64,000 bases of DNA. Origin: Misgurnus anguillicaudatus (lineage: Eukaryota > Chordata > Actinopteri > Cypriniformes > Cobitidae). How positions within the stretch are numbered: position 1 is the stretch's first letter; the number at the start of each line of letters is the position of its first letter. The notes under the pieces are model-generated. The model did no database searches and was not told the DNA's origin. It saw only the letters and a list, made by a program, of their open reading frames with translations. A program made the position numbers and the translations under genes. Below are positions 6,533 to 30,511 of the stretch, piece after piece. Location: positions 12,579,001 through 12,643,000 of the forward strand of contig NC_073359.2 of the NCBI RefSeq assembly GCF_027580225.2, read 5' to 3'.

Positions 6533-6538
6533 CATCTC

Positions 6539-6620: not shown

Positions 6621-6621
<1 letters not shown>

Positions 6622-6712
6622 CAACAAGTTCTCCAACTCATACGACTAACATGGTCGTATGCACCTTTGCTCAAATACGACTACCTATAGCGTATCATAA
6701 AATAGCGCCCCT
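6621..6712 (+). repeat. Left terminal inverted repeat of the KDZ element
   Basis: This terminus contains ATACGAC at about 6640, GTCGTATG at about 6654 and ATACGAC at about 6675, ending with AGCGCCCCT near 6704. The right end, read on the - strand, has the same motifs in the same order with small indels. The short ATACGAC/GTCGTAT words recur in both orientations within each end, which is typical of transposase-binding subterminal motifs. Identity is roughly 70 percent by eye. Confidence 0.75.
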
Positions 6713-7352
6713 ACCGGCAGCGGGAGATGGGCCACAGCCTCTTCGCCTTGATGCATTGTGGGTCTCTACCATAAACGAGGATTACAGGTATGTTATCAGT
6801 GAACCTTGATAATCTAATAATTTGATAACAAAATAATAATGCTAGGGCGTTTTGTGTTGTTTCATCTTTGTTTGTGGTGATGTAGTTGTTCAGGTACGTT
6901 ATGCTACTTGGGAATAAAGTAAAAGGACATTACGAAATATCACAAATAAATAAATAAATGCAAAAGTTAAACATTACGAACATAAGTGACATTGAACTTT
7001 GCTTTTATTAAAATACGTCGTCACAATAAATATTCGAAAAAAATCGATTTTTGTCATTGGACAAATATTAAGAACGTTAGGCCTATAACGTTATAATTCT
7101 GTCGTCTGTTCAGTATTCGTCGCGTTTCAAATCAACAAGGTATGTTTCCCATAATTTTAACATTTTTTAGGGTTAGATCATTTAGTAAAGTTAGTATCTT
7201 GCGATATTGATTCGAAATTGGAAACGTTGTGGTTAAGGGACTATGTAAAAGTGCACACATTTTGAAAACGTGCATGGTGCCACACATATTTCGCTTATCT
7301 GACTCGATCATGCAAATACATTGTTTTTTTTCCCTCTGATTCCTTTATACAG

Positions 7353-7401
7353 GTGCAAATCTAGGAACAGAACAAATAACGCTAGAAGACAGACAACAAA
7401 G
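7353..7401 (+). other. Possible 5' untranslated exon of the zinc-ribbon gene
   Basis: A pyrimidine-rich acceptor (TTTATACAG) precedes 7353 and a GT follows 7401. An earlier possible exon ends at 6787 with the donor ATTACAG|GTATGT. The coding exon at 8605 begins right after an acceptor, so at least one upstream exon must exist. Which of these is used cannot be decided from sequence alone. Confidence 0.35.
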
Positions 7402-7779
7402 GTGATTAACCAAGTAATGTGATGTTTTTGATCCACTTAAACATAATCATGCATCAAATTAACAAAACACAGTCACATGCATCTATATATATCTATATAT
7501 GCATGAAGCCATATATAAGAAACCCCAAAAGATTTAGTTAACAAGAAAAAGTACAAAACTGTATCAGCAACATGTCTTATTAAACTAGCTATAGAGATTC
7601 TCATAGTATGCTGGTCTACAGCTAGTAAAACAATCACTATAGTTAGGTTGTACTTGATTTGTATAACCAAAATACATTATTCTATTAAACTATACAATAA
7701 GTTATATCCAGTGTTATTCAGTTAACATATTGCAATGAGATGAGTGACATGCCTGAAATTTCTGTAATTTAACCTAATT

Positions 7780-8460
7780 TGTGGTCTGAAGATGGACAAA
7801 CTTCTTATGAATGTGGAACGTCCATTTTCGGACTACAAATTAAGATATTTTTGATAAAATCTGAGGGTATTTGATGCACACATAGGAAACAACACCATTG
7901 CACCCTTTGACATCCAGAAAGGTAGTTAAAAACATGGTTAAAATAGTCAACATGACTACAGTGGATGAACCTTAATGTTATAAAGCGATGAGAATACGTT
8001 TGGTGTGCTAAAACAAAAAAAATAAAGACTTTATTCAGCAGTTTAAACTGTCATACATAGTTGACGTAGTAAACTCAGTGCAGGCTTCTTTGTTTACATC
8101 CGAATGCCGACTCATTATTGACCGAATTTTGCCTCAGCATCACATACTGTACATGTGTCATGCTGCTCTTGGGCTCTGCTTCGGGCAATATTTAGTTGAC
8201 ATTCGAACGTAAGCAAGGATGCCTGCATTAGTTCCTGATGTATGGAAATGGTTCAAATTGGTTAATGAAGTTGTTATTTTTGTTTTGTTATATTGCACAA
8301 AAAGTACTCTGGTCTCTTCATAATATTAAGGTTGAACCACTGTAGTCACATGATTTTGCTGCCTATTTGTGGATCATATACCTTTAGATTTCATCAAAAA
8401 AAATAAAAATTTCTGTTCTGAAGATGAACGAATGTCTTACAGGTAGAACTAGTCAGTATT
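7780..8460. repeat. Inverted-repeat MITE remnant in 5' intron
   Basis: ACTACAGTGGATGAACCTTAATG at about 7955 is inverted near 8320 (CATAATATTAAGGTTGAACC and ACTGTAGTCA). Outer blocks TGAAGATG-AC recur at 7785 and 8420. It lies in an intron upstream of the first coding exon. Confidence 0.5.
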
Positions 8461-8604
8461 AGGGGGCATAACAACAAACTCTTGACAATATTTTCGAAGA
8501 CGGTGACTTGTCAACATACTAGGTGTGAAAAAAATATTTCTTATGCCCTCATTACATAGCATGCTGTGTTCTAATCATCATTTACCGTATGTTTCTTTTT
8601 ACAG

Positions 8605-11600
8605 ATGCCTACTCTAAAGGATTGCTACACATGCAGGGAAAAGATTGGAGTAGCCAGCAAAACATGTCCACACTGTAGGGCCAAACAGCCATATAAGCAA
8701 ATGCTTGAGAAAAAAAAGAAACAGCTTTCCCAGGAATGGATAGACAGACAAAAAAAAAACTGCAGTGTGAACAAAATTTATGATTCAACAAATCTTCTGG
8801 TAGGTTTATCTTTCAAATGTTAGTCATAAAATAATAAGTAAATAATGCGTGCGTGCGTGCGTGCGCGTGTGTGTGTTTCATGCCTGTGAAATTGTAATTA
8901 TTTATCCCGTTTTTAGTCTTATGATTGTGTCTCAATTTCATTCCAGCTCCACAAGTGGGAACTTTTAGAGAGGTACCCAGTCCTTCTCCTTGCCAGGAGA
9001 ACCTCAAATGGTTTCTCTGCTGAATGCTTCTGCCCATGGAAGAATGAAACCGAAGACACTCAGGACGCTTTTCTTACTATAAAGAGATTATACGAAAGTC
9101 TTCTTAATGGTAATAAACACAAATGTGCACAAAATTTTAACATATTGCAGAATAAACTTTACATTAAAGACATTAGTAATAGGTTTTATCGACAATACAT
9201 ACATTTGCAGAGTTCATTTTTTCCCTCACATTAGGTTTAAAAAAAAAAATTTTAACATGTGAACAACATGATGTTTGTAGCATTATTTCTTATTTAAAAA
9301 TGTCTTGTTCAACCGGACTAACATTTTACAACACATATTGGTGTTATTTATAAATATTTTTATACATTTAACCTTGAAGTATCATTTTTAGATATTTGAA
9401 ATTACATAAGAACACTTAAGTGGGGCTTTGTATTATTTTGATCATGTCAAATTGATATCACATTATTAAATACAGTACAACCCATAGGTGAACTTAAACT
9501 TAATTAATTGTATTTATTTGAGCTGTATTATTATTGAATTATTGTTATTATCCTATCCACAATTTCTTTTGTCCAACAGTGGCTATTGCAGATAAAGAAG
9601 TAAACGGCATGGGAGAAAGTTCTGTCACAAATGGCACAGAGACTCCACCAGCAAACTCCACACCTCCGTCCACCTGTAATGGTAAAATGTCTTATTTTTT
9701 TGTACAGCATACAGTTTTGTGGTCCTATTACCTGTCATGCACCAAATACTAGTATCTGTCCAAAGGCAGACCTTAAAGCCCCATACACACCAGGACAATT
9801 ATCGTGCATGCTTATTGCAAGTGTAATTTCAGACGTTTTTTGTGTTCATACCCAAGCGATTTTTACTGGTGATTCGCAGAGTGAACGTGCAAATTCACTC
9901 CCTGACAGTTATAGTGCTTGTGCTGATTGATAACGAAAAAAACATATTTATGATATGAATAAAATGAAAGAAGATAAAAATACAGATATAAAATGTATAT
10001 ATGGCATATACATGTTATGAGGAGATGGTAGTCAGAAACAATGGTGCAAATAAGTTACAATGACAGTAGTGCAAGGGAAGAGTAGTGCAAATAAACATAT
10101 TTATAAAATAGACATTCTTAACCAGAGATGTATAAAGTACTAGGGACCCAGACTTGAGTAAAAGTACAAGACGTGCTCTATCAAAAAAGTGACTTGAGTA
10201 GAAGTTGAAGTGCTCTTTAGGCACAGCACTTAAGTGGAAGTACTAAAGTATTAAAAATGTTTTGTACTTAAGTATTGCAAGTAGTTTATTTTAAAATATA
10301 CTACTCAAGTACTGCAACTAAAAGTACAAGTAGTGTGTAATGTAGTTATTAAAGAAAACAGTCAAAAGTTTGAATAAAAAATTTAATTGTTTGTATTATT
10401 TTAAATGTTTAAGCTAAAGGACACTCACAATTCCTTTGGCTGTAGCAGGAGTACAAGGACAGGAATGTTCAGATTAATTCAACTGATATGGCGATAGAGA
10501 ATTCAGTATTAAAGGTGCAGTGTGTAATTTTTAGAAGGATCTCTTGAAAGAAATGCAAAATAATATACAAAACTATATGATCAGGGGTGTATAAAGACCT
10601 TTTAAAATGAACCGTTATGTTTTTATAACCTTAGAATGAGACATTTTTATCTACATACACAGAGGGTCCCCTTACATGGAAGTCGCCATTTTGTGCCGCC
10701 CTGTTTCTACAGAAGCCCTTAACGGACAAACCTTTTTACGACGTTGTCTCCGACGATGAAATGTTTGTCCGTAGCTTCTTTATGTATTTCAAAAGCGAGG
10801 GTTGGTCAGTGGACTGAGCCGTTGGTTGCAAGTCGCAACCTCACCACTAGATGCCTTTTAAATTTACACACTGCACCTTTAATGAAATATTAGTCTATAT
10901 AATGGTAAAGGTACAAGATGTTTTAATGGATTTAGGCTTCGTTCTTTCGCGCACACTCGCCCTTTCTCGCACATTTTCTCTCTTTTTCACGCACTTTGGC
11001 TCTCTCTTCGCTTCACATTTGTCCACAACCACTGCTCATATTTGTGGTGAGAGGAAGGGAGGGGTCCGCCCTTCACTATCTCCGATTGGTTTAGACCACT
11101 ATGTGTGTCTAATGTGTATCCTCGCTCTGGCAGTGATAATGTGGGTTTGTAATGATTCGTAACATTTGAGTGTAAAGTAAAAGTATTAAACTCATCGAAA
11201 ATATGTACTTAAGTAAAAGTGGAAGTAGGAGAAAAAAATTATACTTCAGTAGAGTACAGATACTGCCTTTTAGTACTTAAGTACAGTAGTCAAGTAGTTC
11301 TACTTCGTTACTATACATCTCTGTTCTTAACTATATTTCTCGAAGGTAAAATAAAAAAATTAATAAAAATACCGAAATAAAAATGTATATAATAAACGTC
11401 TATTGGTGTGTCCAAGAACTGGCAGAGCACCCTTAGTATGTAGGGCTCTTTCTTGTCACCTTGGTAAAATGTGTGCTAGACAAGACCGTTTTGTGTTTGA
11501 GTGCCACCAAGTAATGTTTTACTGTAACTTTAGCAGCTCCAGGCATGCGCAAAAGTGGGGATTTCATTGGTCCACCAGTTTTTAATACTGCGCATCAAAT

Positions 11601-14600
11601 AAAAAACAAACCTGAGGTCATTTAAAAAAAAAAGTATCCCTGCCGTTTTTCACAACGGTGTGCACACTTACATTGGTGCCCTTTGTTCAGTCACAAGCCG
11701 TTAAACATCAGCGATAATCATGCACGATATTCGTCCCGGTGTGTACATTACTTAAAGGGATAGTTCATCCAAAATAAAAATTTCGTCATCATTTACTCAC
11801 CTTCAGGTTGTTCCAAACCTTTATACATTTCTTAGTTCTGCTGAATGCCAATAAAGATATTTTAAAGAGAGTTTGTAACCAGACCGCTTTGGGCCACTAT
11901 TGACTTTCACAGTAGGAAAAACTACTATGAAAGTCAATTTTGGCCCAAAGTGTTCTGGTTACAAACTTTCTTCAAAATATCTTTTTTTTTGTTTTAACAG
12001 AACAAAGAAATTTATACAGGTTTGGAACAACCTAAAGGTGAGGAAATAATGAAGAATAATTTTTTGGGGTGATCTCTTTAAGAATTACACTCATAAATGT
12101 TTCATCCTTAAAAACAACAACAAAAAAATATATATATTTTTTTATTTAACATTTCCATTACTGGAAACCTGTACATAGCTCATATCCAATTGTGTGTGTC
12201 GCATAGACGTTGTCATCGTCTTGCTGCCCCCTCCCCGTTCTGTGATTGGTTCCCAATTTGAGGGGAAAATTTGGTCCATGGTCTCCATGCTAGACTTGCA
12301 GCGTGAATAAATTTGTGCACAAGGCAGCATGGGGAAAACCCAGGCTAATATATATATATATTTTTACACACATATTTTTACACTGATTCTGAAATTGATG
12401 CTAGTTGCCGAAAGTCAGGGCCAGCCTACACAATCTGGGAAGTAAGATTTCACAGAAAATAATGTAGTGTATGATGGACACAGACTCATAGCTTAAGGCT
12501 ATGATTCCATCCCACAGGAGGATATGAAACATGTTTTAAGACATGTTTAAGACAATTTAATAACACTTTCCCTCCAGTTTCACAGACAAAGCTTAAGCCA
12601 GTCCCAGAAAAAAATGCTTGTTTGAGCTGTTGTAACTGAAAGAAACTTGTCTCACAATGCACATCACTTTTCTTTTGTCCAACAGTGGCTATGGCAGATA
12701 AAGAAGTATCCGGCATGGGAGAAAGTTCTGTCACAATCACAAATGGCACAGAGACTCCACCAGCAGACTCCACACCTCTTTCCACCTGTAATGGTAAAAT
12801 GTCTCATTCAATAGAACTGACATGTTGTTGTTGTTGTTTTACTAAGGCAAGTTTATAAAAGCTACTTAAATCCCTTAATTGAACTATAGCCTAATCCGGG
12901 TGTAGTCTAAGGCCCTGTTTACATTAGAGCATTTGCGTTTTAAAACAGCATTTTAAAATGAAAACGATCCTCGTTTATACTGGCATTTTAAAAATAATCT
13001 TCATCCACACCATAAACGCATGAAACATGACCAATCACGTAACTGGGCATGCACATAAAAGTGTAAAATAACTTATTACTCTAATAATAGCTTACCTTTG
13101 CACATTTATGCAGCCTAGGGGTGTGCGATATTGAAAAAAATTAATACCTGGGTCCTTTGCTGGCAACTACAACAGACACTAATTTTGAACCTATAAAAAT
13201 GTGTTTGGGAAAGTCTTATACTGTTTTAGCTTGCCCCTGCAACATATTAATATGATTAATAGGTTAATTTTGATTTTATAACTAAACAGAAAGGTCTTTA
13301 TGATTTAAAAAGAAAGCATTCAAGTGAACAGTACTAAACTAACTTGAAGCAAAAATAAATTTCAGCAAATGCAAACTTCAATCAAACATAGTAAGAGAAA
13401 TGCTTACTGTATTGCATTAATTTTTAAAAGTGTGAGAGGTATGTGCACGTCCTCCGCTAGCAACACAGAAATAGCTAAAAGCTCAAGTGGCTAAAGGAGC
13501 ATTAAATATTAATGACGTTGTTGAGTTTATTGTTTTTATTAATTTATATTCACAAAACGTATCAACAAAACATTGATTAAAATTAGGAGACAAATTATAT
13601 GAAACGAAATTTATTTTAAAGTAGCTAACAAAACTTAAATTAAACTCAAAAATAATGTCTGACCCATTACAATTCTCCCGTCATATTGGCCTTTACAACG
13701 CCCTATATGGCGTTTAAAATTACAGTCTATCTTTTGTAATAAGCTAACTAAATTTAAACAAAACAACAACAACATTACAACAATATTCAAACCTAACAAT
13801 ACTCAAACATAAATGTAAAACAGACATTATCTATAAGAATACATGTTAAAACATTCTGACATAGTGTTTATAATAGCTGGTTGGTAGATGTTTACTATTT
13901 TTGGCAAAACCTCCATTGCAAACCTCCATTTACCTGAATAAAAATAATTTTTACCTTGAAAATGATGCGCTGTCACGTTAACATCAGCTGTTAGTTTACA
14001 TAAGACTCCATCTACATTTACACTCAGCGCAACGTCTGAGTTCTCAAACTAAAACAGGGTCTGCAACGAATCCGTTTATGAGGGTCGAAAACGGTGGTGT
14101 AGTGTAGATGAAAGGCGTAAACGTAGCAAAAGTAACGCGTTTTAAAGGATAACCACATTAATGTAAACATAGCCTAAGCCAGGGGTCTCCAAACTATGTC
14201 CTGAAGGGTCACTGTCCTGCAGAGTCTATCTCTAACCCATATTAAACACACCTGAACAAGATCAACAACACAGAAATAGCTAAAAGCTATTTCTGTGTTA
14301 GCTAAAAGTTATTTCCATAATCAAGGTCTAATTATGTGTACTAGAAACTTTCAAGCAGGTCTGCTAAGGCAAGTTGGAGCTAAACTCTTGAAGACCCCTG
14401 GTCTAAGCCCTGTCTGTGAAATTGTTTTTATTGTTTAGGTGTCTCCTAAGCATTTTAGTTTCTTGTGCCTGGAAAGAGGTTACGAATTGTATAGTGTATT
14501 CCAGACTTTAAATAGATTTGTTTAAAATGTGTTGATTACATAATTTTTCACAATTGTATTTTTCCAACAGTGGCAAACGCAGATAAAGCAGCAAGCAGCA

Positions 14601-16432
14601 TGGAAGAGAGTCCTGCAACAAACAACACACAGACTCCACCAGCAGACTCCACAGCAGACTCTGATTCAGAGCTTACGCATGAGCCTGTCACTTTTTTCCT
14701 TCCTCCTGCATCTTCCTTTTTGGCTTCTCCTGATTCCTTTACCACCCCCTCTCCTATGCCTTTATCCATCGCTCCTCTGGTGTCCCCCCAGACTCATCCT
14801 GTTTTCAAGTCCTCTCTGTCTAGTTCTGTATCTTCTTCCCCGGCTTCTCCTCTGCCACCAACCTCTACCCTTTCTACCTGTTCTAAACTTTCCACTGAGC
14901 TAGGCAGTCTAAGCCCAGTATCTTCCTCACGGAAAAAAGGACAAATAAAGAGGAAAGCAGACCCTAAAGGTATGTGTGAATTTGTTAATTTTTGTTTTTA
15001 TTTATTTATTTATTTGACAAATAAAAACTATGCTTGATTTTGCACTGTGAAACAGTTTTGTCAATTGTAAGAATGCATTTCTCATAGTTTTTTGAAAAGG
15101 ACTGTTTTTGAATTCTACAAATGTACATATTGTAATATTTTCTTTTGCACATATTGCAACATTTATTTATTTATCTATTTATTTTAACACACGCTTGTCC
15201 TTTTTGTTGCCTCTTTGATCTGAGTGCTTCATATGTAAGCCCTTTTGGATAAAAACAATAAAATGATTACATTAACAACTTTTTAAAAGTCTAATTGTCC
15301 TTTGAAAAATGTCTTTATCCATGACACTCATGGTAATGTTAAGATGTTTGTTGGACTTTATGTTTTACTTATATCTGTTACAAATAATAACCATCCTTTA
15401 ATTTGTTACAGAATGCCCCATGCATGAAGAATCAACCAGTTTCCCTTACAAAAAAATAATAAGGAAAAGAATCAGGGAGGTTTGTTTCAAAAAGAAAAAA
15501 AAACACATTGACAATAACAATATCAATTTGCTGTGTGTTGTAAACATTGCCAAATATACTAAATAATAATGTAGGGTTTAGGTATTCAAATAATTCATGT
15601 TAAAATGTTCAACTATGGATTTTAAAAAGTAATATTTTACTTCACAATTTACGTAGTTTGACAAAAAAATAAAAACTGGTCCCATGTTTTATATATCCCA
15701 TAAGTTTTATTTTATAAAATCCATTAGTTTTATTATGTTACACTTAGTTCCACTGACTAATAATATTACTTTGATTTCACTTGGATTTAATGTTGTCTTT
15801 ACCATTTAGCAGTATTATTGTTAGTAAAAGTGTAACTTATACTGTATGTGTTAGAATAATGTCATTAACTTCTCCTTGTTTCTTTTTGTTTTTGCTAAGG
15901 GCCATACGGAGGTGTTGGTTCAGTGGCATCCTTGCTCTGGATGGTATGCATATTATCTGATGTTTACTGTACTGTTGAAAATTGAACAGAATTAACAACA
16001 ACAAAAAACATTTATTTATATAAACACAATAACATAAAGATAATAAACTTTACATTAACATTTATTCATCTTTAACCGCAAGATCGATCAGTGACACTAA
16101 AGTCAAATTGTCAAGCAAGTCACATAACAAAGTAATAATGTTTTGCAGTGTAGTACATTCAATATAAAATAAATTGAAATGTATGGTTAAAAATGATTTT
16201 TTTCCCATCATTATGATCATACCATCATTACCCCATGGAATATTAAAAAATAGAACGCATGCATACCTAAAACCTACATGTCTTATTGTACAGTGACAAG
16301 TTGGTATTTATTGTATCCTAGTAATGAACATAAATAAATAATGTGACTATAGTAACACTATTGCTGTCTTACAGTGGGAAAAAGTGGAAGAACTCCTGGG
16401 AGCCAAGTGGAAACATTCAGAGTTTATCCTGA
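8605..16432 (+). CDS. Zinc-ribbon and chromodomain-like protein of the KDZ element
   Basis: Spliced model of eight coding exons: 8605-8799, 8947-9109, 9580-9681, 12686-12793, 14571-14969, 15412-15479, 15900-15943, 16375-16432. All introns are GT-AG and phases join, giving 1137 nt (378 aa plus TGA). The ATG follows the first acceptor directly, so the 5' UTR lies in upstream exons. Residues 7-24 form a zinc ribbon (CxxC, 10 residues, CxxC). Residues 66-119 (exon 2) are an unrecognised segment. Exons 3, 4 and the start of 5 encode three copies of a block beginning VA-x-ADK and ending TPPA(D/N)ST. Exon 5 adds a Ser/Pro/Thr-rich linker and a basic patch. Residues about 333-374 resemble a chromodomain: a basic KKIIRKRIRE stretch, EVLVQW, then SWEPSGNI. 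The gene converges on the transposase and is probably an accessory protein of the element; its function is inferred. Confidence is high for the exons and moderate for the role. Confidence 0.82.
10123..11323. mobile_element. hAT-like non-autonomous element, 1201 bp
   Basis: The ends are CAGAGATGTATAaAGTAC and the inverted ACTATACATCTCTG. A perfect 8-bp duplication TTCTTAAC is at 10115-10122 and 11324-11331. Bases next to both ends are rich in AAGTAC/GTACTT words. There is no transposase ORF. It carries a nested TTAA MITE. Confidence 0.92.
10509..10882. mobile_element. Nested TTAA MITE, 374 bp
   Basis: The ends are TTAAAGGTGCAGTGTGTAA and the inverted TTACACACTGCACCTTTAA. It lies wholly inside the hAT-like element, so it arrived later. 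A fragment of the same family is at 2440-2575. Confidence 0.9.
11752..12081. mobile_element. Palindromic TTAA MITE, 330 bp
   Basis: It starts TTAAAGGGATAGTTCATCC and ends GGGGTGATCTCTTTAA. The two halves are inverted copies around a centre near 11920 (GACTTTCA and TGAAAGTC). It lies in intron 3 of the + gene. Confidence 0.85.
12911..14174. mobile_element. PIF/Harbinger-like non-autonomous element, TAA flanks
   Basis: The ends are GGCCCTGTTTACATTA and the inverted TAATGTAAACATAGCC, flanked by TAA at 12908-12910 and 14175-14177. A 3-bp TAA duplication suits PIF/Harbinger. No transposase ORF is seen. Confidence 0.65.
14180..14400. mobile_element. hAT-like MITE, 221 bp
   Basis: The ends are CAGGGGTC and GACCCCTG. 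The 8-bp flanks are gcctaagc (14172-14179) and gtctaagc (14401-14408), one mismatch. Inside, an inverted AACACAGAAATAGCT / AGCTATTTCTGTGTT hairpin lies near 14265-14300. Confidence 0.85.
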
Positions 16433-17129
16433 AGATGTGTGTGTGTGTTTGTTGTGTTAAGATGTGTCAAGCCTTTTATGACAGTTACAGAGTTCTGATA
16501 TACAGTATGTTTGTTTTGTTTTGTTTTGTTTTGTGCTTGCTTTGTAAAGCATATAGTCATTCTGTGTTGTGTGTTTGATGACTAAACAACATTAAAAACA
16601 ATATGTCACTGGCTCTGTTTCTTCCTATACTCTTCATTTTAAAGATTGTTTATAATTTGTCTTTTAAGGCCAAATATATATTCACTGTAACTAAGTGTAT
16701 TTAGTGATGTTTACTGCTAAAAAATCTGATAAAACCAGATTCTTATTCTTATTGTTATTCATTACCATAAAGCACATGTTAGCTCACAGTCAAGATGGGT
16801 TTTTAAATCTAAAATATGTAAGATAGACCAATACATATTTGGACCTTGCCAAATGAGCAAACAACTGAAGCTGGCATTTCCTTTCTCTGCAGGTAAGAAC
16901 ACAAGGAAGACAGGGATTAAATACTATTAATACCAGAACAAAACTTTTTGTTAAATGATGCCCCTCACCATTCATATACACCTCTGGGTTTTGAGATAAC
17001 TGAACAATGTAGTCAATAATTTACATCTGTTATGAATCACCTAACCTCGCCTCTGCTCCTACCCATATTACAGAAACATCTTCACGCACTAGATTTAAAT
17101 AACATTTTGGCTGATTATATGCCTTTTTA

Positions 17130-17540
17130 ACAAGTGGGGACCAGTCAAATGTCCTCACTATTGTAAAGTATAACAACTTATAATTGAGGACAATTGGTCC
17201 TTACAGGTATGGTCAAAACAAGCACACACACATATGTTGTCTCCTTTGCACCAATAAACTGGTGTGGTGCAATATGGCTGGGGTCGCATCATTCAGGTGG
17301 ATGCTGCACATTGGTGGTGGTTGAATGTCCACCTTTAATATTTAAAGCGCTTTAAGTGTCCAGAAAAGTGCTATATAAATGTAATGAATAATAATTATTA
17401 TTAGGCTACACACATGTCTGGTTCACTATCCTTGTAGGGACTCTCCATAGTTTTTATACAGTAAACACTCACACACAGAAAGACACACACATACAGAGAG
17501 AGAGAGACAGACACATACACCACTAAAATGTCCCTAACCC
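17130..17540 (+). repeat. Retroposon tail and CA-rich repeat remnants
   Basis: The stretch 17270-17390 (GGTGGATGCTGCACATTGGT, then AAAGCGCTTTAAGTG and GTGCTATATAAATG) is the 3' region of a dispersed fish retroposon as I recognise it. Flanking pieces include GTGGGGACC, CA repeats and an AG repeat. It lies between the two convergent genes. Confidence 0.45.
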
Positions 17541-18639
17541 TAATTCCACATATCTATCTATCTACAGAATATTTAAGGGGCAAATTCTGTAACAATATTG
17601 GCTAATAACTGCCATCAGACTGAAACAACACCAACAGCCACAACAACAATAATAATGTTAATACAGGCTCAGTGAGCACAGTCAGTCAACACGTGAGATG
17701 ACACGATGATCACAGTGACATTACACCATTCACATACGGTGATAATCAGAGTGTGAGCTATACGTGAGTTCATTAATTGTGATTTCAGAATGTTGAGTTC
17801 ATTGTACAGTATGAGTGCACAATGAGGGTGCCATGACTTCACATAGTGCACAGTGAATGCACACACACTCTGCTATAGCAGGGCAGCACACATGTCTGGA
17901 AAATGTTGGCCCAAGAGTAGAACGTCACCTGTCTTGCCTATAACTTCTAAGGAATGTTATAGGAATTATCATAGGATCAAATTTAGGACACTTTCTACAC
18001 AGCATTTTATACAGCCATATGGTGTGTTGCCTAATGTGTATACATAAGCGATAAAATGTCAACAATAACAACAACATTATGGCATCAAGAAGCCTAAATA
18101 AAGGTTTTAGAAAGCTCACACATATTGGAGGTAAAAGTGACCAGGATTCACAGATTTGTTTTATCCAAGCATTGTGGCCTATGATTAGAGAGTCAGACTG
18201 GGATGTAACCCAGAGTGTGGTGGTTCGATTTTCACAGCTGGCAGGAAGTGATTGAATTTTGGGGTAGGCCTATTGCAGTTATAGTTGCCCTGTGTCTATG
18301 TGCGTTTGTGTGTGTTCATGACTTGCAGTGAATGGATTTACTATTCAGTGGATGGGTTAAATGCAGAGACAATCATGTCTCTTTCACTTTTTGTTTTATT
18401 GGCAGATATCATTCGCAATTAAAGGATGTCTCGGCAACATGTTTTTCATTTAGTAAACCTATATTAGCTCTCTGAGAGACATCTGGTACTTGTCATATCC
18501 TTTATGGGGTAGTATGAGCTCACAGTGAGCGTGCAGTGACCTCATACTGTGACCTAAGCACACTGTGACAACATTATGAGGATCTTTTGAGATCATGGTG
18601 ACTTTACTGAGAGATCAAATTGTATAGCCATCTAGACCG

Positions 18640-19534
18640 GCAAAAACATAAAGAGCTGGTTACCCAGAGAGCAAAGGGTGTTCGCTGTAGGACAGGAGAG
18701 ATCAAGACAGAGATGCACTTCCTCCTTTACTGCCACAATATCTATAAGAGATCTCTACTTCACCAAATACACTAACTTCATAAAAAATGTACAGCCATGA
18801 AGTAAAACACAAATTTTTATATTAGGAGACGGACAGACAGCAGTGGCTGTGAGATACATGTGGATGTGCCACAGCCTGAGAGACAGCAGGTGAATGTATG
18901 TTGTGTGTGTGTCTGACCTTAATGTGTTTTCCTACAGTACAACAGTGACCCTCAGTATGTGTGTTTATATGTTAAAACACTTTGATATGAAATGTTCATG
19001 TTCTTCTAAGGTTCTAAAAATCCACAGTAGCCTACTAAACTACTTATTTTTTTCTTGTAAACCTTTTTGCCTCATCCTCTAGCTGGCCCCCCTATACAAC
19101 TAACCTTACTCTGCATTGCCACCCTGACTATGGTTTATTCACTCCGCTACATTCAAAACATAGATACCGTACACTGGCGGCAAGTACTGAGAGACTTAGC
19201 AAGAGTTTCTTTGAGTAGGCCGTCCGGTATCTAAATGGTAGTTTGTAGGCACTTTAAGTATGCACATGTATGTATGTATGTGAATATGTATGTATATGTG
19301 TCTATATATGCATGTGTATGTATATGTATGTATGTATGTATGTTTATGTAGGTGTATGCGTAGGTATATGTATATGTGTACATGTGTATGTATGTATGGA
19401 TCTGCAATAACCTCCAGATATCCTGATTGTATTGTTATTCTAGTTTGTTACTGTTTTGTTTTGGGTTGAGTAGCACGGAGCCGTCTGTAACATTTCACTG
19501 CATTGTATGTATGTGACAAATAAATCTGAATCAT
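18640..19534 (+). pseudogene. 3' fragment of a LINE (non-LTR retrotransposon)
   Basis: The + strand frame from about 18654 reads GVRCRTGEIKTEMHFLLYCH, resembling the Cys/His C-terminus of fish LINE reverse transcriptases (C-x-GE, HFLL-x-C). It is followed by non-coding DNA, a TATG microsatellite (19258-19405) and an end ATGTGACAAATAAATCTGAATC that resembles a LINE 3' tail. The 5' part is missing. Confidence 0.6.
19258..19405 (+). repeat. TATG microsatellite
   Basis: Imperfect TATG/TATA units inside the LINE 3' region. Confidence 0.85.
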
Positions 19535-20642
19535 TATTTACATCCATTCAAAACCTATAACTTGATCTTAGGCCTACTCTAAAGCCACGATGGGTTGGTG
19601 TTAAGCTAAGCAATGAGTGCTTGGACATGTGAAAAGCGTGAGGCACTGATGAATTAGTGTGGTATTTTGTTTGGTTGTGTTTAAAAAAGGAAATCAAGTT
19701 ACTTCCTCTTAGATTGTTGTATTACATAGAGAATTGTGTGTCATGTTTAGCAAAGGTGTTTTATGAATTACAAAACTAAGTACTGATGATACATCTAGTT
19801 TAATTTTCACATAGGCTAGTACACATATTTGTTGTACTGCAACACAAGGATTCACAGGCATTTTATTTTATATAATTGTTGTATTATTTGGTGCAAAAAA
19901 TAAAGCAATATGAATGGTGTTTACATTAACTTTTATATATTATGAACACTATTATCTTGCTTTGGCCACATCTCACCAAAATGCCATTGTTTATTATTTT
20001 ATAACCTTCAGTATCAGCATTTAGGGCACTATGATCACATTGATATTGTTAAGGGCATATATATTGTTATTTTGCACCATGATCTATTACAATATATAAA
20101 ATATAAAGACATTGTATTCCACAAATTCTTAATGAGTACATAAGTATTTTGTATTTTCATGATCACTATAGTAGTTAATGTAACATGTGAAAATTTGGCT
20201 TTAGAAGAATAAAAATATAAAACTTAAGATTAAATATTAAATATGTCTATACAAATTAATATGAAATATATTACCTTTAGAACCAAAATGTGAATATAAA
20301 TATGTATTCAATATGCAATAAATAACATATGTAACAGTTATACTGCAACATACTGCCCAATGTAAAATCTGAAATATAAAAAGGATCAAAGTAAGCAGGC
20401 TTTGCTAGCTGTGTCTCTGTCACAATAGTGACAGATGCTCATGGCTAATGTAAAGCCTTCTGATATCCAAATTTGAGGAAAATGAGAACATGTTGGTGTA
20501 AGAAAAAACAACAAACACAGTAGCTCATGCTTAGAATGACTTTTACTTATTATTTTGTTTAATAAATCTGAAAAATATTTAAATAAATTGCAAAGAATCA
20601 AAGAGTGCTTCCAATGTTTGCGGCTTTAAAATGTAAAATTCT
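19535..20642. other. Non-coding DNA between the convergent genes
   Basis: AT-rich with no gene seen. Several AATAAA-like words on either strand could serve 3' ends, but none can be assigned with confidence. Confidence 0.4.
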
Positions 20643-21679
20643 TTAAAATTCATCTTCAGAAAATTCTGAGCTGCTGTTGTCCTCAATCTCCTCTTCAGCA
20701 TCTTCCTGCAGCATGAAGAAGGAAGGGTCTGTGTTGACACTGCCATAGGTGCTGGCGACTGCTGCAAGTTTTTGCTGCAGAATGTGCCGCTTGTGTAAGA
20801 TACAGCAGTGCAGCCCCCTGTGTCCCTCTTCAGTCAGCTCTCTTGGTGGATCTAAAGTAAAAAGTGAAGAAAACTGACATTGATAATCAGGCAGCATTTC
20901 AGGAACTATATAGTGGGGAAAATGCCCTGCAGTTTGAGTGCCCAACTCTGGTGTTTTACTGTTCATTAATGTGCAATAAATAAATAAATAAATAAATAGA
21001 AAAACAGCTAGCAAAACTTAAAAACTTTTTTTAAGAGGTGATTTAAAAATACTTTTAAATTTGAAGCAATATTTACAAGAAACAAATATCCTGCTGCTTA
21101 CAGGCATTAACATATTTTGACATTATTAAAACAACAACAGCAACAACATTTATAATACATACTATGGATCTTGATGTCCTCTTTAATCTCCCGAAGGAAG
21201 GTGTCCAGTTGGTCCAATGTATTTTTAAGATGTTGATAATGCTGAGTCATCTCTTTCACTATTATTATCTTCTCCTCATCCATGCGCTTGGCCAGCATGA
21301 CTTGGTCAAACAGCCGCCTCTTCAAGCGGAGACTAACCACTATTTTGTTTAAATAAAATTGGAAGGTAAAAAAAATTAAAACACATTCAATTTTTCAGCT
21401 TTATGCCTAGCACAGTGCTCTTCATTAATAATTTTGTGTGCCTTGATAATAATATTGATAAATAAACTTGTCCAACAAGGAAAATGTATAAGGGTAATAA
21501 TCTAGATAATGCCCTATAAAATATCCTATCATCCCAAATTATAAATATAATTATGCAGCCAAAACACCCAAATGATAACAACTGAAGCAAAACACTACAA
21601 TTTAACAAATAAAGTTAAAGAAATGCTAATAGCAGTATCAAGATGTGTGCTTTTCATTTAAGACATACTGTGTTGGCTG

Positions 21680-22016
21680 TAGGGCTGTGCAAAAAATCGA
21701 CTGCGATTATCATGTGCGTGTCATCAGTAAAGCCGGTTCGGTGATTAGTATTAAATCGGCATCAGCTGCTTTCAGATGGAGCGGCATTTATTACACAGAC
21801 CCGTAGTTCACCGAGAAGCTAGGCAAAATCGGGTTCATAATCGAGGAAAATCGACTCCGATTATCTATGCGATTTTGCTTCTCGGTGAACTACGGGTCTG
21901 TGTAATAAATGCAGCTCCATCTGAAAGCAGCTGATGCCGATTTACTTCTAATCACTGAACCGGCTTTACTGATGACACGCGCATGATAATCGCAGTCGAT
22001 TTTTTGCACAGCTCTA
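21680..22016. mobile_element. hAT-like palindromic MITE, 337 bp
   Basis: The ends are TAGGGCTGTGCAAAAAATCG and its near-perfect inverse. The perfect 8-bp duplication GTTGGCTG is at 21672-21679 and 22017-22024. The arms are almost fully complementary over about 150 bp. It lies in a transposase intron. Confidence 0.93.
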
Positions 22017-22582
22017 GTTGGCTGTGTTACATATTGCATGATGTAGGATATTAAATATTAGTGTTAGGATAAAAGTGTTAAATTGCTGACTGGTATTCAT
22101 TGAATCAAACGAATTATGTGAATTAAAAAAAGCACAAAAATACAACAATACTAACCACATCTCCTTGTGCTTCCCAAGGCAGAATGAAATCATCAGAGAG
22201 ACAGCATGCTGCTTCTGTGTCAATTTTCTCTTCACAGCCAGGAAGGGTGTTGTACTGCACTATCTTCTCTCGGAGTGTCTTTTTGAGCTCACCAAGTCTT
22301 CTCCGTTTGCGCTGCCTTGTTTGGTTGCTGTCTGTAAGGTTAAAAAAAGTGATTAGGAAAAAGAAAAAAAGCAAGCTGAGTAAAAGTACCAAATACCATT
22401 CTGTCGATACAGATCACGCTTCTTTCTTCGGATCGAATAAATGATCTCATCAATTTCTTTCTGGAGCTCTTCCTGGCTACCGGGAGTACTGTCTCTCTCT
22501 AGAAAAACAGAAATAGCCAAAGTAAACATTACAGAAAACATGGTATCACCACAGAAATGTAGCCAAATGTATGGAAAAAGTA

Positions 22583-23122
22583 CCATATTTTCCGGACTAC
22601 AAGTGTTTTTTTTTCCATAGTTTGGCCGGTGCTGCGTCTTATAGTCAGGTGCGCCTTGTAAGTCAGAATGAATTAATTTGGACATATGAGAGGCAAGAGA
22701 CAACATTACAGTCTACAGCCGCAATAGTCTGTTATATGATGCTCCTGTATTTATGTAATCTAATGAATTTAGTGATGTGGAATGACGAGCCTGCGAACTT
22801 GATGCATGCTGGCTTGTTCTGTTAATATCGCCTATTCAGCCTCTCAGGTATGCTCTGTATGCTATTGTTGATTGTCTAAATAACTGATAATGTCACGTTT
22901 AACGTACAGACACAGATTTAGCCTGCTGTTCTGTCTGCTATTGTTTAGTTGAATAACTCGTCTTTCCAGATTAAATGTCTGTTCTTCGGCTTGGATTTTG
23001 TGAAATAATTTTCTAAATAAATGCAACGTATAGTCTACTGCGACTAATATATGTTATTTCGTCTTCATGAAGCATTTTTAATTGATGCAACTCCGGAGCG
23101 ACTTATAGTCTGGAAAATACGG
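22583..23122. mobile_element. Non-autonomous DNA transposon, 540 bp
   Basis: The ends are CCATATTTTCCGGACTACAAG and the inverted CTTATAGTCTGGAAAATACGG. It lies in the transposase intron between exons 23272-23155 and 22498-22397, ending about 30 bp from the former. No ORF matches a transposase. Confidence 0.75.
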
Positions 23123-24499
23123 AACCATTGTATACACTCGCAATTATGACATACCAGTTGCTGCCCATTGCTGCACCTCACACACCCACCGATCTGCATC
23201 CTCCTCAGAGATGTTTAACTCCTGCTTGAGACTCTCAAGATTGGCTGCTTCCATTTCAGCCCTCTGTGTAGTCTATTTAAAAAAATAAAAATTACTAGTA
23301 TCACTACAAAATTAGTGAACACGGCCCCACACTACCAAAAATTATGCAGTCAAGATTTGGGAAATTCTCAGGGGTCAGCACAGCTAGAATGCAATGGCTG
23401 AGCCTTGCCCTAGAAGAATCACTTCCTTGATCATGGTGCTTTAAGTAAATGACAACAACATCTATAGTCAAAATTGATTTACTGCATCAAGTACCTACTG
23501 TCTTTTGACATATTTTTGAAACATCTTTGTACTATAAAAAATGTGAAGTTAATATTTGTAGGTAATCGACACCAGTTTAACGTCGGTAGACCATGTAATA
23601 CAAATTTATGTCAAAACACCTCCAGGGCCCAGAAAACACCTCAGGACCTAAAACATACAGTGTAGCCTTCTTACTTTGACAAATCTTTTTGCCAGTGTCT
23701 TGTGAAGACTCTCCACCTTCCTATTGTTCCATGCCATGGCAAGCACAGTTATCATATCTGCTCTGCCTTTTAAAACAAAACAGATAAGAACAAATTAATT
23801 GTACAATCTAGTATTATGTGTCCAACACAAGGGTTATTTCTTTTTTTAACCAACCTGACTTGGTCATGTACTTTGTAGTAAGAGCTGCCCTTGAAAGGAA
23901 ACTATTGACCTGTTCCACCTCTTCACCGACAGTATTTCCTGCACCATCTTGGCTTCTACCACCCCACCTAACCTGCTCCAAAACATAAGATCAAGACATT
24001 TGTCTTAAAATCTTATTTATTAGTTGGTGTATCCTCAATGAATTTGGTGCCATTAGCAAATTTTATTATTTTAATGATCTTAGGTAGAATTATCATGAAA
24101 GCAAAGCTTTCATAACAGCAGTTGTGCAATTACAATTTTAACTGTAATGTTAATAATGTTTTAAAAGTTCATCAGTGTTGTGTGTATATTACCCAAAACG
24201 CACACTTAATAAGTTATTTTAAACTTATCCTTGAGGATGTCTCACTGATATGACACACTTGATTTAACTCATCAGCTCATTAGTAGAGACTTGAATTGGA
24301 CCTGAACTGGGTGTGTCAGAAAAGGGAGACATACTGTACAAAATGCAGAGCTGGGGGTCATCCAGGACAGGTTTGGCAACCACTGCAAGTATATCACTAA
24401 TGTGCATAACCTTTTCTGAAACATGCATATTGAAAGACATAGAAATCCAGCAAATGTTTTTCTGATGCCGTAAGGATATGCTCCTGAAACATATTTCCC

Positions 24500-24733
24500 C
24501 AGTTTCACAGACAAGGCTTAAGCTAGTCTCAGACTAAAATGCATGTTTGAGTGGTTTTAATGGAAAGTAACTTGCACTGACATATCTTAAAACATGTCAG
24601 AGTCATTGTTTTGTCTCAAGATGTACACCAGTAATGTTTTTACTTTTCTAGTGTACATTTATAGTGTAACTTAAATATCCTAATTGAACTAAGGCCTAAT
24701 CGTGGCTTTGTCTAAGCCTTGTCTGTGAAACAG
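24500..24733. mobile_element. MITE, intact copy (234 bp)
   Basis: The ends are CAGTTTCACAGACAAGGCTT and the inverted AAGCCTTGTCTGTGAAACAG. It is the reference copy for the split element around 12575-14422. It lies in a transposase intron. Confidence 0.8.
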
Positions 24734-27700
24734 GTCCATTGTGACATAAACTTAACTCTGTACACTGTACCTCACATTTGCCAGTGTGGGCCTTAGCATG
24801 CATTACGGAGAGGAAAGGCTTCATCATGGTTAGTGGTTGGAGCTCAGGCAACTTCTCTGCCATCTTTTCCAAATAAGGCCAATACCTGTAATGGGAAAAA
24901 CGCTTAGTTTATGAGGTGCGTGGCAAAAATGGTAAGGAGACAAACCAGGACCAATGTTACTACCCATGTACAATTCCTGTAAACAATCATGAACACCATG
25001 TAGTCATATGAATAGTAATATTGCATTATATCTGCAAGAAAATCTGTGGTAGATGTAAACTGATGAAACTGTACCCATATTAACCTTATATTAAGTCCAT
25101 AATATATTAAATGTGTTCTTTTTAGCTAGACATGGTGTTTTTCTCATGCATGGCATAGATTACTAACTGTAAGACATTAGTTGTTATTTGGCAATGGCTA
25201 TCTACTTGCAAGCAATGTCCATACAGAAGAATGTCACATTTGCAGCTTGTGCCAGTTCCTTCTGCAGGAACATTGGGTAGGCATATATTTCACCACGATA
25301 GTGATTCAAGCCTTGCAGCAAGATTCCATGTCTGCACACTGCTATTTCAAGGCCCTCTTCATCCACCTTGGCCCGGGATTTCTGTGATGTTTCTCTGCCT
25401 GCTGTAAATGTTGCTGGCCCACAGACATCATGACCTGTCCTCTGAAAGTAAAAACAATATGGTACATGTAATACCAGGACAAGTTTTTAAAAGCTAAGGT
25501 TAATAGAGTTGAATAAATCCTTACACTACACATCTGGCTTCTTATTTGCTCAACAAAGGCAGATACTTTGGCATCTTGTGCGATGAACAGTCCATCAAAA
25601 AGAGGTGGTTCGTCTGTCCTGTTAAATAAGAAATTTTTCATCAACAACACAATTAAATAATCATAAATGTTGCATTTACCTTAATTAATATGAAATTTAA
25701 CCAGAAACGTGCCACGCATTTTAATCAGTATTAATTTGATCTGAACACTGTGTTTAGGGTATCAGCTTTAATTTGTCCTATGGCATGAACTTGTGCAAGA
25801 AGTTAAAAACATACTGTATCAAGTACAAAAATAAATAACATTGTTAAAGTTTTAGTATATGTCTTAAGGCTACAGAAGGGAGACAAAAGTTATTAAACAA
25901 TGTACAATATTATTGTCATAGAACTCTAATGTTACAAGCAAAGAGTATTTAAGATGTACCAATTTGGATACAAATTATTTGAATATTAAGCAAGCAATCA
26001 TGCAATTTACACATTTTGTTATTTCTGAACTTTAAATATAAGTGTACTTTTATCACTTTTTTACCAACAAACTCAAAATTGTTTTTATGATGCTAAGAGC
26101 CAACATTTTTATATTAAAGAAATATGTTCATATGCCAGGACATGACTGAAATTGTATGTATGTAGAAACTTACATGTTATAGCAATAAGGTGCAGCATAG
26201 TTTCTCTATAAATAACTATCAAGTCCATCCAACCAATAGCTATACTTGTTTTTCTTTAGAGGGTCATGGCATGGGGGGTCTAGAGCCGTGAGTTGCCGCA
26301 TGGACAGGCTGTCACTGTATTTCTTGGCTAAACCAAAAGACTAAAAAAGACTAAAAAAGTGCACAAGTGTGCCATCCTATATCTAAATTGTAAACGATAA
26401 TAAAAAATTCCACTGTCCCTTTGGATTTCTTGAATCTGTAATGTTTTCTATTGCCGTCTGCAGATATAGCCAGCATGTCTGGTGTGCATGCTGGGCATTT
26501 AAAAGGCTCCATCAAGCACAGATCTTCCTTTTTATAACTGCAGAAGGCAAACTCCCGAAAAACTCTATTAAACGTATTGCCACAAATACTACCCATCTGG
26601 AAAAAAAAATGGAACAGTTTTGGTTAATAAAAGATTTTAAAGTCTGAAATTTAAGAAACATTCTAAATGAAAACAGCCCTTACCCGACCAGTGGAAAGAG
26701 ATCGATGCTCAAGCATTTTGAGGAATGCTTGTTGGGATAAGGATGGGCTAGCTAACTTCATCTGCTCGAATGATGTGAACACATCAAACTTAAACAGCAT
26801 TTGGCAGCTGGTGGTTGCTGGCCAATATCTAAATTTAAGCAAGTCACCAATTCCAGGAGTCCATTTAGTAGAACACAGTGGACAGCATACACTAGGCAGG
26901 CACAGGTTGTATGGACCTTAAAACAAACATGTGTTAACCATTTGACCAGTATTTGTACAGCACAGGACAACATAATAATAGTAATCAATTATTATGCTTA
27001 ACTTCATCTAGTGGGATATAAAATGTAGAAGGAAGTGAAAAGACATACCATTGATTGTCACCAAGACAGTCTGCTTTCCTGGGGTGATTATGAGGTCTTG
27101 GTTTGGACCGCAGGAGCAGATTTGCAGTGGCGGAAGAATTGGAAGCATACACACTGCAGTAAATCACATTTTTAGAAAGTAATATCAGTAATGTCTACAC
27201 ATTTACTAAACAAATAAAAAAACAGATAAAGGAAACAGCAGACAGAGCTTTTATAGTACCACTGTACATGAAGTGAACATTATGAAAACACGGTAATAGG
27301 ACATACTAAAATATCTGAACATACCTTGTTCATTGAGGTGATACTGGTCACCACAAACCACCACAAAGGATGTTGGTGGAATAGGATTAAAAAACCCATC
27401 AAACATAACTTCTCTGTTATGCAAAATATTTTTTCTATGGATCTCTGTGTCGCATGTGGAACAGAAAAACTGAATTCCCGAGGGAACACAGTCCAGGCAC
27501 CGGACAACAGCATCAGTCATCTTGCATTGTTGACAGCAATGCTGGTTTACAGTCTCTGCAGTCAACATGCAATTTAAAATTTCTGGCATCGCAGCCTTGA
27601 ATTTTTTTTCAGATATAGCCTGTCTTTTTGTCCACGCAGACATGGTGGTTGTGTCTTCTTCCACCGATGCAGTGACAGTGACTGAATTTACCAGGTCTTT

Positions 27701-27866
27701 TAGTCTCTGAAGATGTTGATCTAAATTAATAATAAAAAAGATACTAATAATAATGATAATAATAAGATAAAAAAGGTTCATCAATGCACTGTAAACTAAC
27801 ATGAACAAACAAAGAACAACTGTATTTTCATTAGCTAATGTTAAGAAAACATTAGTGTATACAGAA

Positions 27867-28211
27867 ACTGTGCGTTCACACCGCACAGGCGAAAGCATCA
27901 AAGTGGCCAGAAGTCATTCATTTTTTAATGAGAGTGGCGACAAGCTCCGGCACGGCGCGTCATGTACAGGGTGAGCATCAAGGAGAGTTGAAATCAGCTC
28001 AACTTTATGGTAATGAGCTATGACACGGTTTGGCGGCAACAAATCGGAAGGCGGAAACCTTCGGCAGCAACTAATCCGAGGGCAGAAACCTCTGCTTGAG
28101 AGGATTCCAGAGAATGCATTCGAGCATCAGAGCGTCCACAGTTTTTCTATAGCGTCGTTGACAGGGCAGCCGGAGCTTTTTTTGACGCTCTCGCCGGTGT
28201 AAACGCACAGT
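27867..28211. mobile_element. MITE, 345 bp
   Basis: The ends are ACTGTGCGTTCACACCG and the inverted CGGTGTAAACGCACAGT. It lies in the transposase intron between exons 28506-28417 and 27720-27325. Confidence 0.8.
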
Positions 28212-29828
28212 AACAAATGTATTGCACATGGTTAGTTCTAGTTTAAGTAATGAAACTTATAGTAAAGTTTTACTGCAATTTCTTATATGGCTTTATCACT
28301 TCATGTGCATTACGGAAATGGTCACTACATACATTTTGACACTTTCCTAATTTTGAAGTTTTTACATTTAAATATTAAGGCTGATATTATTTAGGCTTTC
28401 AATTCAATATGCTTACCAAGATTTGGGACCTCCTGTTGAATTTCATTCACCTCCTCAACTTCAGAGAGCTCCTCAACTTCTGAAACCTTAGTGCCAGAGG
28501 GTTTCACTGCAAACACAAAATACAATGCTATAGAAAACATTACTTCTGACCAGAAGCATAAACACTTGTAGACAACAGCATGCATGTACAATTTACTGAC
28601 CAGATCGATTCTTCATAATCCTAACACGTTGTGGTAGGATGTTCCCATGCTGGTCTCTCTTCCTCCACGAAACATTGGAGACTTTAGGTCCCTTTTGCTT
28701 TCTTTTCTTTTTGGTCTGAAAGTAAAAACTAAATGAGGGAGACATAAGGAGAGCTATTTTCTTAGGAAAATAATGTATGAAAAGTATTACATTTGTGGTT
28801 TCAAACTCATCTGCCAAGGTTTTTGCTGCTTCCAGCCATTGTCTGAATGCCTCAGATGCCATTTGACGATTTTTTAAAGATAAATAACGAAAGGATAAAG
28901 GTATAAAGAAATACAAATAGGGAGAGAGATAAACACAAGAAAAAAGAGAGAAACAGAGAGAGGCTCTTAAAAGAGCCGTTTGATTTGTAAAATATTTCGC
29001 TGATAAAGGATGGGTACAAAAACCTGAAAACAAAGAGATGAGATGATTAGTTATACTATCATTCAACTTGTTTCTGAAAGTTACATTTAGATAAATACAA
29101 AGTAAATGACTAAAACGGGAATTAAACAGGGTCAAAGGGAAATAAGCAGAGTGTCTACACAAGCTCCAAGTGCACCAATCAAAACAACTACACAGACTGG
29201 TCCATGCCAAACTGTGCCTGTAAATCTGAATTTACTAATGATTATTATTTATTGTCTTTGACTATAGTCTAAAATAGGCTATAATAATGAACCTGATTTT
29301 GTAATTAATTCATCTGTGATGTTTTAATTCTTTAAAATGTAATATTCCAGGTTGAATTGATACCCTGAATTTAAATCATTTAGAAAGCTGTTAAACTGTT
29401 ATGCCCTGATAATATTATTATATATGGTGAAAACACCTTCGGGATACTGAAATTTATTGTGGCAATATGACAGACATTGCAGTAACGTTACACGACATAG
29501 AACTCGGTAACGTTACATATACATAATTCAAACTTTATTTTAGTTATAAATTAACCGTATAAGTTAGGGTAGGCACCATAAAGAATCGTGTTTTGCTTGT
29601 TAATTAAGAAGCCGGATTTTGCATCTGAGGTAGCTAAGTTAGCAGCACCTGCAAGATAACGTTACTGTAGGTAGCAACGGCTAGCTTCTTAATGGGTAAA
29701 ATGGTATTCTCAACAGACTTGTAATTAAAACGCCAAGATGCACTTGCATGCTTAGCTCCACATGAATTGCAAACAATCAACACGACTACAAATACATATT
29801 TTAAAAAACAACACAGACATCATTTTAC

Positions 29829-29910
29829 CTACGTCCGTCAGGAAAACACCTAGCCACGCCTGCCTTCTTCTTCTTCGTCGTCGTTTCCTTCAACTTCCTC
29901 TTGGTTCGTT
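29829..29910 (-). other. Probable 5' untranslated first exon and promoter side of transposase
   Basis: On the - strand a good donor (GTAG|GTAAAA) follows 29829. The next acceptor is at 29023, in exon 29023-28791, which carries the ATG at 28862. The transcription start is unknown; about 29900 is a guess. The right terminus lies about 500 bp upstream. Confidence 0.45.
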
Positions 29911-29960
29911 TAATTATTTATTTTTATTATTTATTTTCATTCAGCGCAACTTGGAATAAT

Positions 29961-30057
29961 TAAAATATAATATATAATATAAATACATTTGCGGCGCTGA
30001 ATATATATATTCAGCGCCGCAAATGTAAAATGTATAATTATATTATATATTATATTT
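29961..30057. repeat. Long palindrome near the right end
   Basis: A perfect 42-bp palindrome (29985-30026) has 16-bp arms ACATTTGCGGCGCTGA around ATATATATAT. AT-rich imperfect arms extend it to about 97 bp. It lies between the transposase first exon and the right terminus. Confidence 0.9.
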
Positions 30058-30370
30058 TCAATACGTTACAAATAATTATATGATATAACGTTAAACTGTA
30101 TCCGTTTTTATTAGTTTTTTTAAATCTTTTTTTCTTACAAAAGGTTTATAATTTAATTAATCATTTGATGTGATAAGAGTTATTGATGTGGCTGATCACT
30201 TTCCAAGATATTTAAAAACATCATAAAAACATATATAACTTTTAATTACACAACTTCTCCTGTATTATAATCTTGATTAAATACGATTATAAAACGAATA
30301 GTATTTTGATTGGTAATGACAGTCAAACGCCATTTCATGACAAACGAAACTGTCGTTATTTAAAGGGATA

Positions 30371-30466
30371 CTAGAGGGCGCCCTAACTTTAAAACGTAAC
30401 AGTAGGTCGTTTTAAGCGGCTTGCACATACGACATACTGGGTCGTATTTTGGAGGAGGACAGTCTC

Positions 30467-30467
<1 letters not shown>
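30371..30467 (-). repeat. Right terminal inverted repeat of the KDZ element
   Basis: On the - strand this reads TGAGACTGTCCTCCTCC, then ATACGAC, GTCGTATG, AAACGACC and AGGGCGCCCT. That is the same series as the left terminus. The CTAT microsatellite starts immediately outside it. Confidence 0.75.

Positions 30468-30511
<44 letters not shown>

Follow-up and report, generated by a model that had tools for sequence, protein, structure and literature searches.

The closest described relatives of the element considered here are Zisupton of the platyfish (Xiphophorus) and the elements grouped with it, whose common features, in the excerpts of the published accounts on which all our comparisons draw, are a KDZ (Kyakuja-Dileera-Zisupton) domain, a multi-exon gene, a cysteine cluster, terminal inverted repeats (TIRs) and 8-bp target site duplications (PMC12730594, PMC9297572, PMC12062965). 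Zisupton was placed in 2013 among the superfamilies without DDE (PMC3706591), and KDZ elements are classed with the DD(E/D) elements (PMC12477816). Here we analyze a 64-kb stretch of DNA (the window) from the Misgurnus anguillicaudatus assembly GCF_027580225.2 (contig NC_073359.2, positions 12,579,001 to 12,643,000), which quite probably contains a cut-and-paste transposon of 23,845 bp from the sparsely studied KDZ group that has inserted into an (ATCT)n microsatellite and that encodes, in addition to a KDZ transposase, a second protein with a chromodomain-like C terminus (gene 2). The evidence consists of matches to the KDZ and CxC3 profiles, the exon structure of the two genes, a palindrome present at mirrored positions near both ends, and the phase of the flanking ATCT arrays.

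The present element differs from platyfish Zisupton in having CxC3 rather than CxC7, the domain defined by platyfish Zisupton (PMC12062965), and may also differ in combining weak TIRs and a shared palindrome with a separate convergent second gene. The giant KDZ elements of Ectocarpus, which reach 30.3 kb, and of Chlamydomonas, where an active one measures 31.7 kb, are of similar size and also contain nested inserts, but the extra gene of the present element has a chromodomain-like module. The three KDZ elements of Cryptococcus neoformans, KDZ1-KDZ3, likewise combine a KDZ core with a CxC domain and, in a fungal trap assay, generated duplications of 8 bp (KDZ1) or 4-8 bp (KDZ2/3), but they are only ~9-11 kb in length, have TIRs of 139-241 bp and carry CxC1 rather than CxC3 (PMC12810828). 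Outside KDZ, two-gene Harbinger elements likewise pair a transposase with a separate protein (Nuwa, of the Myb/SANT type; PMC12730594) and have tail-to-tail genes (PMC12477816), but the transposase is of a different family and the partner in our case is zinc-ribbon-like and chromodomain-like. Similarly, chromodomain Gypsy retrotransposons encode a protein equipped with a chromatin reader, which is associated with targeted insertion (PMC12477816), but there the chromodomain is fused to the integrase, whereas here the module is chromodomain-like only and belongs to a protein that a DNA transposon encodes separately.

The transposase gene and gene 2

The element and its transposase gene are made up as follows.

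6622-30466: whole element, 23,845 bp, delimited by the edges of both ATCT arrays and by mirrored terminal palindromes
20643-28862, minus strand: KDZ transposase gene, assembled by hand from 17 coding exons, with Pfam KDZ and CxC3 matches
28862-28791, 28715-28601, 28506-28417, 27720-27325, 27153-27049, 26916-26684, minus strand: transposase exons 1-6
26596-26418, 25618-25525, 25441-25206, 24885-24771, 23972-23855, 23766-23675, minus strand: transposase exons 7-12
23272-23155, 22498-22397, 22331-22156, 21339-21163, 20851-20643, minus strand: transposase exons 13-17
27325-27720, minus strand: exon 4, a B-box-like zinc-binding module upstream of CxC3 (PF22586, below cut-off)
26418, minus strand: doubtful junction, exon 7 donor GA instead of GT, exon end set to hold phase with exon 8
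21340-22155, minus strand: doubtful junction, intron 15, GT-AG but out of phase, with a foldback insert inside

The spliced product has 875 residues (with X at the two doubtful junctions) and matches Pfam KDZ (PF18758) over residues 379-598 with an E value of 3.1e-27 (96.1 bits, cut-off 26.6) and Pfam CxC3 (PF18804) over residues 228-332 with an E value of 3.2e-11 (43.4 bits, cut-off 26.6). The preliminary description of this DNA had named a KDZ transposase, a claim that a missing profile match would have refuted, and the claim stands with the KDZ match and, in addition, with CxC3. The locus thus has the KDZ domain, the CxC-type cysteine cluster and the multi-exon gene seen in animal Zisupton (PMC9297572). 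Upstream of CxC3, exon 4 alone gives 24.4 bits and 3.1e-05 against PF22586 (0.004 with the whole protein), which is below the cut-off of 27. The KDZ part had no matches among PDB sequences. Introns are GT-AG in 15/16 cases and junctions are in phase in 15/16. The 2627 nt of exons contain a single stop (the terminal one) in the chosen frame and 34 and 71 in the other two, although these counts, like those for gene 2 below, are a description rather than an independent test because the open frame partly guided the choice of exons.

The GA donor and the out-of-phase junction mean that a full transposase may not be made by the present copy, which is probably no longer autonomous. The element had previously been called complete; this holds in that its exons lack internal stops, but not for the transposase donor without GT and the junction out of phase. 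In the giant DNA transposons of Ectocarpus (KDZ, EnSpm and Sola-1) the transposase is often predicted to be a pseudogene and movement in trans has been proposed (PMC12477816). That the gene is instead intact and the copy autonomous, with both doubtful junctions being errors of the model or the assembly, is possible but doubtful: 17 exons run without an internal stop and the other 14 junctions have GT-AG introns and maintain phase, but no alternative in-phase GT donor for exon 7 was found by eye in the local sequence, and the join at intron 15 does not keep the frame.

The second gene is located in the left half of the element on the opposite strand.

8605-16432, plus strand: gene 2, hand-assembled from 8 exons, tail-to-tail with the transposase gene
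8605-8799, 8947-9109, 9580-9681, 12686-12793, 14571-14969, 15412-15479, 15900-15943, 16375-16432, plus strand: gene 2 exons
8605-8799, plus strand: exon 1, CxxC...CxxC, zinc-ribbon-like (UPF0547, 0.0026)
9580-9681, 12686-12793, 14571-14672 (start of 14571-14969), plus strand: exon with its splice borders in three copies, from column identities
15412-16432, plus strand: exons 6-8, chromodomain-like C terminus (Pfam Chromo, PDB chains)

All seven introns are GT-AG and in phase (7/7), and the frame that encodes the 378-residue product contains 1 stop, whereas the other two contain 12 and 20. Hence the two convergent spliced genes of the preliminary description, a 17-exon set on the minus strand and an 8-exon set on the plus strand, are both borne out, although that description mentions neither the domains of gene 2 nor the doubtful junctions of the transposase gene. 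They start 1.6 kb (transposase) and 2.0 kb (gene 2, left) inside the ends and both point inward, which is the arrangement expected of a single unit. The zinc-ribbon-like exon 1 is followed by a middle block without a profile match and by a part rich in Ser, Thr and Pro that holds the exon present three times, where the first two copies are identical in 96/108 columns and the third is identical to them in 71/102 and 74/108. A PDB search with the N-terminal part gave 17 weak matches (best E 0.018), which were not used.

The C terminus is where gene 2 resembles a chromatin reader. A 72-residue piece encoded by exons 6-8 matches Pfam Chromo over profile positions 5-40 of 53, across all three exons, with 18.8 bits and an E value of 0.0015 (15 bits and 0.024 for the whole protein). 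When the same piece was searched against the PDB with E up to 10, 33 of the 36 distinct sequences retrieved were named HP1, CBX/chromobox, LHP1, Polycomb or Rhino, the best with an E value of 0.001. Opposite the three cage residues of HP1, the gene 2 protein has Phe at the first, Trp at the second and Cys at the third (Y48 in HP1). It is possible from these features that the protein reads a histone mark. Two profile scores count against the domain assignments, as the Chromo scores stay under the curated cut-off of 25.1, for which reason the module is called only chromodomain-like, and the UPF0547 match of exon 1 (18.3 bits) is under its cut-off of 29.

It is unlikely that gene 2 is foreign to the element, either captured from the host or left behind by a different transposon that had inserted into the left half, with the KDZ machinery limited to the right half. 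The left half does hold nested inserts and the triplicated exon, and none of the 21 pattern matches to a gene 2 piece in viral_contigs was confirmed (genome_contigs was not searched with it), which is a weak argument because that collection is not one of animal genomes. Set against this are a frame that stays open through 8 exons with seven in-phase GT-AG introns and the position of the gene, 2.0 kb from the left end and tail-to-tail with the transposase. Moreover, of the 437 inverted pairs, none of the 25 longest encloses gene 2, although this is not a full test. Even less probable is that the chromodomain is an artefact of exon choice and gene 2 ends differently. Three short exons (68, 44 and 58 nt) were joined by hand, the exon 6 donor (GAG|GTTTGT) looks weak, and both the low Chromo score and the Cys opposite the third cage residue would fit such an error, but the junctions of exons 6-8 are GT-AG and in phase, the Chromo match crosses all three exons, and the PDB sequences retrieved mostly carry HP1-type names.

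Termini, borders and microsatellite flanks

The borders of the element, as a 23.8-kb unit with one microsatellite on either side, are defined by the following features.

6534-6621: left (ATCT)n flank, 22 units, from the repeat listing, with the last ATCT unit ending at 6621
30467-30511: right (ATCT)n flank, 11 units, with degenerate TCTG/TCTA arrays carrying on to 31570
6622-6661, plus strand: left TIR, imperfect, from a border-anchored alignment to the right end
30426-30466, minus strand: right TIR, imperfect, from a border-anchored alignment to the left end
6641-6659: left spaced palindrome TACGAC-N7-GTCGTA (hairpin z -3.23, 1/200 shuffles as good)
30428-30446: right spaced palindrome TACGAC-N7-GTCGTA (hairpin z -1.93, 8/200 shuffles as good)

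The most telling feature is the palindrome, which is stronger evidence than the TIR alignment. TACGAC-N(4-12)-GTCGTA matches only twice in the 64 kb, at 6641 and 30428, and not at all in 100 dinucleotide shuffles of the same 64 kb, and the two copies are separated from the borders by 19 bases on the left and 20 bases on the right. Its weight is in the common sequence at mirrored positions and not in the hairpin as such, for which the ends were folded as single-stranded DNA with 200 shuffles each. The palindrome may be the binding site of the transposase. Alignment of the left end with the reverse-complemented right end, starting from the borders, gives 28/43 identical columns, a score that 6 of 1500 control pairs drawn outside the unit also reached.

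The flanks provide a further constraint. An ATCT unit closes the left array and another opens the right array. If one array was split here, arithmetic on the flanks allows only duplications in multiples of 4 bp (0, 4, 8 ... bp). The target site duplication itself is hidden inside the ATCT array. The phase of the array is compatible with duplications of 8 bp, as published for Zisupton and Dileera (PMC12730594) and for KDZ1 (PMC12810828), and equally with one of 4 bp, the lower value for KDZ2/3. The Kyakuja rule of CA..TG termini with a 7-bp duplication (PMC12730594) is not followed at these borders, where the left terminus is CA and the right is TC, and 7 bp is excluded because the phase needs a multiple of 4. 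Based on the mirrored palindromes and the phase of both arrays, the borders are most likely 6621|6622 and 30466|30467.

Several results weigh against this interpretation. When the ends are aligned locally without anchoring, the score is at the level of chance (715 of 1976 control pairs reached it with 200-bp ends and 282 of 2975 with 100-bp ends), and in a scan of possible borders a score of 14 was obtained with both borders shifted inward compared to 8 at the proposed positions. Because the unanchored score is ordinary and inward-shifted borders score higher, the last terminal bases are not fixed by alignment. The palindrome pattern was picked only once the ends had been inspected, 7-bp spaced inverted repeats are frequent in general (the window has 329, of which 19 contain CpG), and the array phase would agree by accident in 1 of 4 cases. 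A piece of the KDZ sequence gave 5 pattern matches in viral_contigs and 39 in genome_contigs, none of which was confirmed, and neither is a collection of animal genomes. Accordingly, of the inverted termini in the preliminary description, the anchored similarity and the mirrored palindrome survive but as plain TIRs they are weak, while the same microsatellite on both sides and a KDZ transposon unit of ~23.8 kb, at 6622-30466, are supported by the profile matches, the palindromes and the array phase. Alternatively, two unrelated ATCT arrays might by coincidence flank an old KDZ fragment that has lost its true ends. This would fit the low TIR identity and the presence of further tetranucleotide repeats in the window, for instance (ATGT)n at 19258-19398, but is very improbable given that the same 12 specified bases occur near both borders, at nearly equal distances from them, and nowhere else in the 64 kb, and that the array phase agrees.

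Nested inserts and other repeats

Six inverted-repeat inserts were found within the unit.

21681-22016: nested foldback insert within transposase intron 15, arms of 140 nt that are 96% complementary, with a 9-base flank repeat GTTGGCTGT
11741-12090: nested foldback insert, one piece related to 2672-2772
10508-10883: nested inverted-repeat insert, with relatedness to 2452-2569 (pieces)
7953-8348: nested inverted-repeat insert, from the inverted-repeat scan
24502-24731: nested inverted-repeat insert in intron 10, with a similar piece at 12567-12649
27867-28211: nested inverted-repeat insert in intron 3, from the inverted-repeat scan

Pieces of two of these recur outside the unit. Together the six inserts account for ~2.0 kb, and 12907-14178 (1.3 kb), with arms that are 70% complementary, is a further, weaker candidate. 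It had been proposed that much of the ~24 kb derives from later insertions, which is plausible but is borne out only in part by these inserts.

Elsewhere in the window, a foldback-type element of ~5.9 kb (34151-40088) has inverted arms at 34151-36896 and 37383-40088 that are 95% identical. Its TACGG..CCGTA ends and the flank CTAATA (alternatively the 7-base CTAATAT) fit the rule of TAYGG..CCRTA termini with 6-bp duplications given for IS3EU (PMC12730594). It also contains an extra copy of the end at about 36895 and internal 43-bp minisatellites. Two minisatellite clusters at 46383-47345, with units of ~26-27 and 18 bp and a 143-bp higher-order unit, have proline-rich frames, and a dispersed repeat is present as an inverted pair, 3557-3942 and 57807-58142, in two pieces that are 77% and 80% identical. 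An open frame at 18611-18772 (EIKLYSHLDRQKHKELV...) had no match in a Pfam search and presumably resembles the tail of a LINE protein. A Pfam search with six frames of the window (54-134 amino acids) gave two weak matches, both under cut-off, and a tRNA scan found no genes.

Proposed mechanism and significance

The explanation that we favor, and consider quite likely as a whole, is that of a KDZ cut-and-paste transposon residing in an (ATCT)n array, with a transposase that binds the terminal palindromes and cuts its target with an 8-bp stagger, a gene 2 product that acts as an adaptor, and a present copy that is probably non-autonomous. The KDZ transposase would bind the mirrored palindromes, which lie 19-20 bases in from the ends, and would then pair both ends and excise the element. 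Joining to the target DNA with an 8-bp stagger would then duplicate two ATCT units, a duplication that would be invisible within the array. Gene 2 would provide a small zinc-ribbon-like and chromodomain-like adaptor, which most likely would tether the transposase complex to modified chromatin or shield the element from silencing. Such a guiding or protective role is suggested by the domain content and position of the gene and by the likeness to the chromodomains of retrotransposon integrases (PMC12477816). A more far-reaching and tentative possibility is that the element represents a giant KDZ lineage (a vertebrate one if the host assignment is right) in which gene 2 is a standing component, with the adaptor reading histone marks and steering insertion to repeat-rich silent chromatin such as microsatellites. 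If so, the adaptor would be to DNA transposons what chromodomain integrases are to retrotransposons.

Algal KDZ elements of similar size with extra genes, and fungal accessory genes, have already been described (PMC12477816). A chromodomain-like partner was not reported for any KDZ element in the literature searched, which consisted of titles, abstract openings and passages and had the founding papers (Boehne 2012, Iyer 2014) outside its scope. Within these sources, the chromodomain-like partner gene is likely a new point for KDZ. The present copy supplies ends that can be tested, with a palindrome at a set distance from each border, together with a defined transposase gene and a candidate partner for chromatin targeting. 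The chromatin-reader-like module of gene 2 could help choose the landing site and, if gene 2 is conserved, the targeting of a DNA transposon would be linked to histone marks in an experimentally accessible system.

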